Source: Cycloclasticus sp.
Lineage (GTDB): Bacteria; Pseudomonadota; Gammaproteobacteria; Methylococcales; Cycloclasticaceae
Length of the DNA stretch: 64,000 nt
Direction of reading: 5' to 3'
Assembly: GCA_002700385.1 (NCBI GenBank)
Contig: PADC01000008.1
Location: forward strand, 288,485-352,484
Both the position numbers and the translations under genes were made by a program. The notes beneath the pieces are model-generated. The model did no database searches. It was not told the origin of the DNA and worked only from the letters and a program-made list of their open reading frames with translations. The number at the start of each line of letters is the position of its first letter. Position 1 is the first letter of the stretch. Shown one piece after another: positions 62,716 through 64,000 of this stretch.

Positions 62716-64000
62716 TTAATCGATCGGCTTAATCGAACCTTCTGCAATTTTAGCGTCAAACAACGCGATTATTTGCTTAACGATCGGGCTGTTCTCTATT
62801 TCTTGTTCTGCTTGACGTTGCCTATCAGCGACTTTCTCATTCGCAATACTGTTAGGCGTGACAAGGTCCTTCGCCCCTTCGGTTAGAATCAGTTTTAACT
62901 TTCTTCCATAGTGCTCCGACAACGCCTGCTCTAGCTTAAGTTCCGATTTTTTATTCAGCGACACATGCCCACCCACCAACAACAACTCACACTCATGGTC
63001 ATCTAACCTTAATAAGGTGGCATTATTCGCTAGCTGAAGTGCCATCGGATCTAAACTCAGCGTTGGCACAAGCTCATGCCAAGGCTTATCTGAAGTTACT
63101 GCCACCTTAGCCGGTGTATCCAACTCTGGTTTTTCTGCCAACGTTGAGACGTTAACCGCCTCAGCTAGAGGCGCTCTTCTCGGCTCTATATTTTTAAGTG
63201 TTTTTTTTTCAGGAATAACTAATTTGGGTGCTTTCTTCGCTTGCTCTGGTGGCCTGTTCGGCTCAGCCCTGTTTTTTACAGCGGGTTCCGTCGTTTGCGT
63301 GTTCAACCGCGGACTCGATGTTTGGGGTTTTATTACCGATTGAGTTTTCGGTTGCTTAAAATGATTCTGCTGCGTTTCATTGTCTGCAGGTGAAAAAGCT
63401 AACATCCGCAATAACACCATCTCAAACCCTATTTTAGGCGTGGGCGCTAATGGCAGGTCTTTTTGCCCCATCAAGGCAATTTGATAATACAGCTGCACTT
63501 CTTCTTTACCCAGCTTCTCGGCTAATTGCGCTAAAGACTCATCTTCAGTTTGATGACCCATCAGTTGACACACCGCGATTTGATGCAAGTACATTAACAA
63601 TGATTGGAGCACCTCAGCATAATCTGGCGCAAATTCATCCAACGCCTGGATACTGTCTAATACGGCAGCACCCTGCTGCGTTAACAACGCATTCAGCAGG
63701 TCAAGTACTGGCTCTCTAGCAACACTGCCCAGCATGTCGATAACATCAACTTCATTCAGCACACCGTTACCATGCACAATCGCCTGATCCAACAGGCTCA
63801 AGCCATCCCGCATACTCCCATCAGCTGCTCGCGCTAACAGCTCAGTCGCTTTTTGTTGATATTCAATACCCTCACTTTCTAAAATCAGTTTAAATTGACC
63901 TTCTATTTGATCCGGTACTAAACGTTTAAGATTAAATTGCAAACATCGGGACAGTACCGTTACCGGCATTTTTTGTGGGTCTGTCGTCGCTAACAGGAAT
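62716..64000 (-). CDS. dnaX: DNA polymerase III subunit tau/gamma (partial, 5' end outside window)
   Basis: The frame stays open to the end of the window; the ATG at 63969 is internal, as ten upstream codons ([10 protein letters not shown]) are also DnaX. Seen here are the end of the clamp-loader ATPase lobe (sensor 1 [15 protein letters not shown]), domain III (about the next 180 residues), a Pro/Lys linker and the tau-specific C-terminal domain. A run of nine adenines (63201-63209, minus strand) in the linker could generate a short gamma-like product; see the separate entry. It heads the dnaX-ybaB-recR-hinT group. Confidence 0.95.
63200..63210 (-). other. A9 slippery tract in dnaX, candidate site for gamma-type product
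   Basis: On the minus strand the linker reads G-A9-C, coding Glu-Lys-Lys-Thr. One added A (or -1 ribosomal shift) leads to Asn-Thr-stop (AAC ACT TAA); one lost A leads to TAG after four codons. The site falls near codon 416 of the whole gene by comparison with E. coli, whose gamma ends near 430. A 6-bp hairpin (63157-63173) lies 27 bases after it. No upstream Shine-Dalgarno-like stimulator is seen. Confidence 0.6.

Follow-up and report, generated by a model that had tools for sequence, protein, structure and literature searches.

A conserved nine-adenine run in dnaX of Cycloclasticus is a candidate slippage site for a gamma-like DnaX protein

INTRODUCTION

The clamp-loader gene dnaX of Thermus thermophilus undergoes transcriptional slippage on a run of nine adenines (A9) (PMC1088944, PMC5009743), and a drop in run counts beyond a certain length has been taken as a sign of selection against slippage (PMC1088944). 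Placed in Escherichia coli, the Thermus run reportedly shifts in both directions, with insertions predominating, while for E. coli RNA polymerase slippage is reported to be weaker on poly(A) than on poly(T) and to require more than 7 A (PMC6260861). The heptamer A AAA AAG is described as much more shift-prone, slippage is said to accompany the presence of two Lys tRNAs, and in Caulobacter gamma results from proteolysis of tau (PMC5009743).

Two further sets of dnaX genes are close to the case described here. Antonov (2013) reported two-ORF dnaX genes in 12 genera, in which 12 of 17 genes carried a poly(A) tract of 7–10 and for which transcriptional realignment was proposed (PMC3711429). Blochmannia, like the organism considered here, is a gammaproteobacterium with a homopolymer tract in dnaX, and its frameshift is possibly corrected by slippage; however, it is an endosymbiont, its frameshift lies downstream of the gamma site and the tract is not read there as a gamma-making device (PMC3017870). 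The importance and the making of gamma have so far been argued mostly from E. coli and a few other species. Among the matches listed in our search of the open literature (titles and abstract openings, with few subscription journals), we found no description of A-run slippage as a gamma-making device in a free-living gammaproteobacterium. The mechanism itself belongs to a recognised type; for its spread in Gammaproteobacteria we found no account in the open literature searched.

MATERIALS AND METHODS

The window is a stretch of 64,000 nucleotides from a Cycloclasticus genome (contig PADC01000008.1). A family search yielded 18 genomes, all of one genus, with a dnaX match in 17, from which 16 complete genes were kept; G013 (87% complete) gave no match. 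One further gene (L017, from G003) breaks off at a contig end directly behind its A run; it was left out of all genus counts except codon usage. For the class survey, 167 genomes were drawn evenly from Gammaproteobacteria; 166 had a match, and we retrieved 148 of the dnaX, either as loci or as regions. With 13 order-level loci added and one truncated and two unparsed loci removed, 158 were used, 5 of which were cut by contig ends. In family f131, 31 genomes were searched and 28 loci were readable (27 plus L221 on a short contig), the other three being fragments or paralogues.

Synonymous shuffles preserved each protein and its codon counts and treated genomes as independent; since the genus genomes are related, the shuffle figures should not be read as formal probabilities.

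RESULTS AND DISCUSSION

An A9 run between domain III and the tau-specific part of DnaX

The features of the locus are as follows (coordinates in the window).
62716–64000, minus strand: dnaX, tau reading frame, which continues beyond the window; full length in the genome 578 codons (L001); NCBIfam TIGR02397 above cut-off in G000
63397–63753, minus strand: DnaX domain III (PF12169, aa 234–352), common to tau and gamma; Pfam, with coordinates derived from amino acid positions
63133–63396, minus strand: variable linker, aa 353–440, with a conserved island; genus alignment
63201–63209, minus strand: A9 putative slippery run, codons 415–418 (GAA AAA AAA ACA); GAA, AAA and AAA in 16/16 complete genus genes
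63194–63196, minus strand: TAA that would end translation if one A is gained or the ribosome shifts by −1, predicted product 419 aa; stop here in 16/16 complete genus genes
63186–63188, minus strand: TAG met after one lost A (predicted product 421 aa) or two extra; in the genus, within 5 codons in 14/16 and within 8 codons in 16/16
63157–63173, minus strand: 6-bp hairpin 27 nt 3′ of the A9 run, judged to lie outside the device; no hairpin of similar stability in the other 15 genus genes
62731–63132, minus strand: tau domain V (PF12170, aa 441–574), absent from the predicted short product; Pfam

The coding strand reads GAA AAA AAA ACA CTT AAA at the run. Because Pfam domain III lies before the run and tau domain V after it, the A9 falls within the linker in which the C-terminus of a gamma form is expected. 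The first-pass annotation had placed it in this linker, near codon 416 and at a position matching the gamma end of E. coli, and had predicted an early stop upon gain or loss of one A. All of this holds: the run starts in codon 415 of 578, the E. coli slip site is at codon 428, and translation of the shifted frames predicts a protein ending in PEKKNT after one extra A and in PEKKHLKI after one lost A. Directly upstream of the run, at 63211–63237 of the minus strand, the genus alignment shows the island KAPKLxIP, conserved at the protein level in an otherwise variable linker.

The locus shares with T. thermophilus a sense A9 between the common and the tau parts, a tau encoded by one ORF and nearby stops in both other frames. 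It differs in that the host is a gammaproteobacterium, and in that slippage and a 1:1 ratio were measured in Thermus, whereas here they are predicted. With E. coli it shares the gene, a near-equal place, the kind of short product and a close −1 stop.

Conservation of the run and of the shifted stops in the genus

A lone A9 in one gene is unremarkable. The window holds 3 A9 against 8.7 in window shuffles, the 2.5-Mb genome contains 77 overlapping A9 words, and 10 A9 runs were found in 305 crudely called genes in 400 kb of the same genome. As a single A9 is not rare, the evidence must come from relatives. In the same 400 kb, sense runs of A6–A8 in genes exceeded expectation (597 observed versus 475 expected), whereas sense runs of at least nine A were depleted (10 versus 21.5) and runs of at least nine T were absent (0 versus 7.1). 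This avoidance step from length 9 is the pattern taken elsewhere to indicate selection against slippage (PMC1088944).

In all 16 complete genus genes the site is GAA-AAA-AAA, as A9 in 14, A10 in one and A8 in one, followed by ACA in 10 genes, ACT in 2, AGT in 2, AAC in the A10 gene and GCA in the A8 gene. The codon after this one encodes Leu, Pro, Thr or Phe, yet it ends in T in 16/16 (CTT, CCT, ACT, TTT), and with the AAA, GAA, GAG or GAT that follows it creates the shifted stop in every gene. An invariant third-position T occurs in just 2 of 522 ungapped codon columns of the genus alignment. The A10 gene has, by eye, one T fewer just after the run, so that frame and stop are retained; in L014, the A8 gene, another A9 follows 14 codons later, and a second linker A9 is also present in L005, L010 and L015. 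The genus-wide pattern is that anticipated by the first-pass annotation, with the run kept at A8–A10 and the nearby stops preserved in 16/16 while the flanking linker changes, and none of the 16 genes has AAG in place of AAA at either lysine.

The codons at the site are uniform although, in genus dnaX, AAG accounts for 26% of Lys codons, GAG for 40% of Glu and CTT for 12% of Leu, and the median codon identity at four-fold residues shared between genus members is 0.35, which indicates that synonymous sites are near saturation and close to randomised. Uniform AAA is not peculiar to the site: of 22 conserved Lys columns, 5 have AAA in every gene, including the two here, and of 22 Glu columns, 2 have GAA in every gene, including the one here.

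We compared these features with synonymous shuffles. A run of at least nine A was present in 15/16 genes versus 4.4 expected (maximum 11, 2000 shuffles), and a −1 stop within 2 codons in 16/16 versus 3.8 expected (maximum 9, 1000 shuffles). The +1 stop alone was not enriched among the 16 genes (within 5 codons, 14 versus 11.2; within 2 codons, 0 versus 7.0). We read this as Leu codons able to close the +1 frame at once having been sacrificed for CTT. With the codons through the −1 stop held fixed, a +1 stop within 8 codons was found in 16/16 versus 8.3 (maximum 13, 2000 shuffles), and independent selection of the +1 stop is unsupported unless the −1 stop is fixed in this way. Conservation of the run in the genus thus exceeds chance, and the nearby stops in both shifted frames go beyond what synonymous shuffling produces, the +1 stop only with the −1 stop fixed. 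Judged from these sequence patterns, the A9 run is very probably a selected frame-switching site.

We considered L017 as a possible gamma-only gene, since its A11 is followed by an immediate stop. Only about 16 nt separate this A11 from the end of its contig, and the tau part was found on a different one; we set the gene aside, as it may represent either an assembly edge or a real gamma-only frame.

Recurrence of A runs in gammaproteobacterial dnaX linkers

Across the 158 dnaX of the class survey, 19 runs of at least nine A were found in 49 kb of linker, in 19 loci, versus 6.9 expected (maximum 12, 500 synonymous shuffles), and 1 in the 214 kb of dnaX sequence outside the linkers (0.5 expected); a 20th run (L139) lay just beyond the linker border. 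No runs of at least nine T occurred in the 158 genes. The motif had been regarded as unexpected for this group, a view contradicted by its recurrence in dnaX linkers of other gammaproteobacterial families. In a FastTree phylogeny built from the N-terminal parts of 175 DnaX, the A9 state requires at least 16 changes. The genus forms one clade of 16, and its nearest group consists of 14 run-less loci of the same order, with low support (36) for the joining branch.

In two of the 19 loci (L044, L093), the zero frame is closed and a shifted frame open. Among the other 17 (one of which, L042, is cut by a contig end), both shifted frames are closed within 8 codons in 12, versus 4.5 expected (maximum 10, 2000 shuffles). 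For 70 control runs of A5–A7, no excess of both-frame closure was observed (14 versus 10.8). One family with a genus-like A9 context, f122 (G174), was followed up separately: A9 or A10 was present in 4 of its 29 loci (five cut by contig ends), and the run is not generally kept there.

Mode of frame switching and alternative explanations

We consider it likely that the run is a selected slippage site for a gamma-like DnaX, with slippage by RNA polymerase as the main mode. In this model, RNA polymerase would stutter on the run, and a share of dnaX mRNAs would carry 10, 8 or other numbers of A. Messages with 9 or 12 A would encode tau, and the other numbers would lead to a stop a few codons on, giving a product of about 419–421 aa with domains I–III and without tau domain V. 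Insertion of a single A would be the main event, because the stop in the insertion frame shows the strictest conservation; the excess of insertions reported for the Thermus run fits this stricter stop (PMC6260861). As E. coli polymerase reportedly slips less readily on poly(A), the slippage yield may be low. Ribosomal slipping on A AAA AAA may contribute.

The main alternative is a ribosomal origin of the short form, by programmed −1 frameshifting on A AAA AAA without the usual stimulators. The heptamer is correctly phased for this, and of all features of the site the −1 stop is kept most strictly (16/16). However, a ribosomal heptamer needs 7 A, where 15/16 genus genes have nine or more, and the +1 frame is closed too. 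The in-frame heptamer is A AAA AAA in 16/16 genus genes, none having A AAA AAG, although the latter is reportedly much more shift-prone (PMC5009743).

Stimulators point in the same direction. In the E. coli control (L253), which has A AAA AAG at codon 428, the Shine-Dalgarno (SD) pairing energy was −7.4 and that of the downstream fold −19.1 kcal/mol, the fold having a z-score of only −0.9 against shuffles. The genus means (n = 16) were −0.6 for SD energy, −6.7 kcal/mol for the downstream minimum free energy (MFE) and −0.4 for the fold z-score; with E. coli as the control, no conserved SD sequence or hairpin was found at the run in the 16 genes, and a downstream z-score of −2 or below was reached in 2/16 (L001, L004). 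The hairpin 27 nt downstream in the window, noted by the first-pass annotation, does exist, and the MFE of the 50 nt downstream is −13.4. The next most stable among the other 15 genus genes is −10.1, and we rejected the hairpin as a stimulator, as it is not conserved in the genus. The genus is thus unlike E. coli dnaX, with its −1 ribosomal frameshift on A AAA AAG, in having neither AAG nor SD sequence nor conserved hairpin. Slippage in Thermus is not known to need an SD or hairpin stimulator; the genus resembles the Thermus type here in the lack of both, and this likeness compares absence only.

The same contrast appeared in the class survey. Outside runs of at least nine A, four in-frame A AAA AAG sites were found, each with a strong SD sequence (−7.4 to −10.3) and only two with a −1 stop within 3 codons, whereas at none of the 19 loci with at least nine A did an SD energy fall below −5.9. 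Stable downstream folds of about −23 kcal/mol were present at two of these 19 (L068, L179), which is in favour of ribosomal shifting there.

Lysine tRNAs bear on both modes. A CTTTTAA site with an identical tRNA-like sequence was found in 10/10 genus genomes by a loose pattern search, and the five of these sites scanned with ARAGORN, the window's genome included, were all tRNA-Lys(UUU). A stricter Lys tRNA pattern matched only GTT-anticodon (Asn) sites in the genus, ARAGORN found no tRNA at two CTCTTAA sites (G015, G004), and no CUU Lys tRNA was found in the 10 genomes by this pattern search, which is not a full census. That the only Lys tRNA found reads UUU, as in E. coli, agrees with ribosomal shifting, and it speaks weakly against the proposed link between slippage and two Lys tRNAs in this genus.

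Overall, the absence of stimulators and of AAG, a run of at least nine, the closure of both frames and the avoidance of A runs in the genome favour transcriptional slippage, to the extent that sequence features can discriminate. Ribosomal frameshifting as the source of gamma appears unlikely, and the first-pass preference for a Thermus-like over an E. coli-like site is probably right.

A different possibility is that the run is a by-product of the conserved PEKK motif and of a bias towards AAA codons, any slippage being noise. The motif continues upstream as KAPKLxIPEKK with free synonymous change, and because this island is conserved as protein, a protein motif might explain part of the run. 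Three of the all-AAA Lys columns are elsewhere in the gene, and since shuffles alone yield 6.9 of the 19 class runs, about a third of those could be by-products of lysine-rich linkers. Against this, the codon choice at Glu, Lys and Lys and the T that follows go beyond the synonymous null, and runs of at least nine A in genes are otherwise under expectation in the 400 kb of this genome. We regard the by-product explanation as improbable. A further alternative is that proteolysis of tau yields gamma, as reported for Caulobacter (PMC5009743), with the run irrelevant. In its favour, the longest linker A run is 7 among 34 dnaX from the other families of the order (L018–L030, L154, L274–L293), and the species concerned must either lack gamma or produce it in some other way. 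Proteolysis leaves the conserved run and stops unexplained, and is very improbable in this genus.

Retention of the run and of both shifted stops despite free synonymous change suggests that selection favours the production of a truncated DnaX.

Swapped frame roles in family f131 and other two-ORF genes

In family f131, A9 was present at the site in 28/28 readable dnaX (L044, L194–L218, L220, L221). Thirteen of these genes encode tau in a frame that continues uninterrupted across the run, and gain of one A brings in a stop. In another 14 (15 with L221), the zero frame is closed directly behind the run, and the open frame beyond requires one extra A. The open shifted-frame tail was tau-like in 13/14 (the exception, L198, is cut short), and Pfam searches of the shifted frames of two such genes detected tau domain V in each (8e-18 and 6e-16). 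As the tau part lies in a shifted frame in about half of f131, a shift is needed to reach it; judged by these reading frames, the frame roles are swapped within the family. About half of f131 is thus of the two-ORF type of Antonov (2013), in which the shift yields tau, whereas in the window it would yield gamma (PMC3711429); an A run in dnaX is common to both. The run of the 13 one-ORF f131 genes ends in an in-frame A AAA AAG, so that ribosomal shifting is possible there. The tau part behind the A9 in the two-ORF genes of f131 can be reached only by a slip of polymerase or ribosome, which makes this family a natural test.

With somewhat less than even confidence, we tentatively propose that across Gammaproteobacteria poly(A) slippage is a commoner route to two DnaX proteins than the A6G ribosomal shift, that it has been gained or lost many times (at least 16 changes on the tree), and that in one family the frame roles have been swapped, tau being reached only via a shift at A9. 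dnaX genes that seem truncated or frameshifted in this class may be real.

In a third lineage (G097; L093/L191), an A11 is present, the zero frame stops at once and a shifted frame is open for 208 codons, in which no Pfam match was found. Outside the class, an A10 occurs in dnaX of four flavobacteria (L034–L037, Allomuricauda/Flagellimonas); the frame ends after the run in L037 and continues in the other three.
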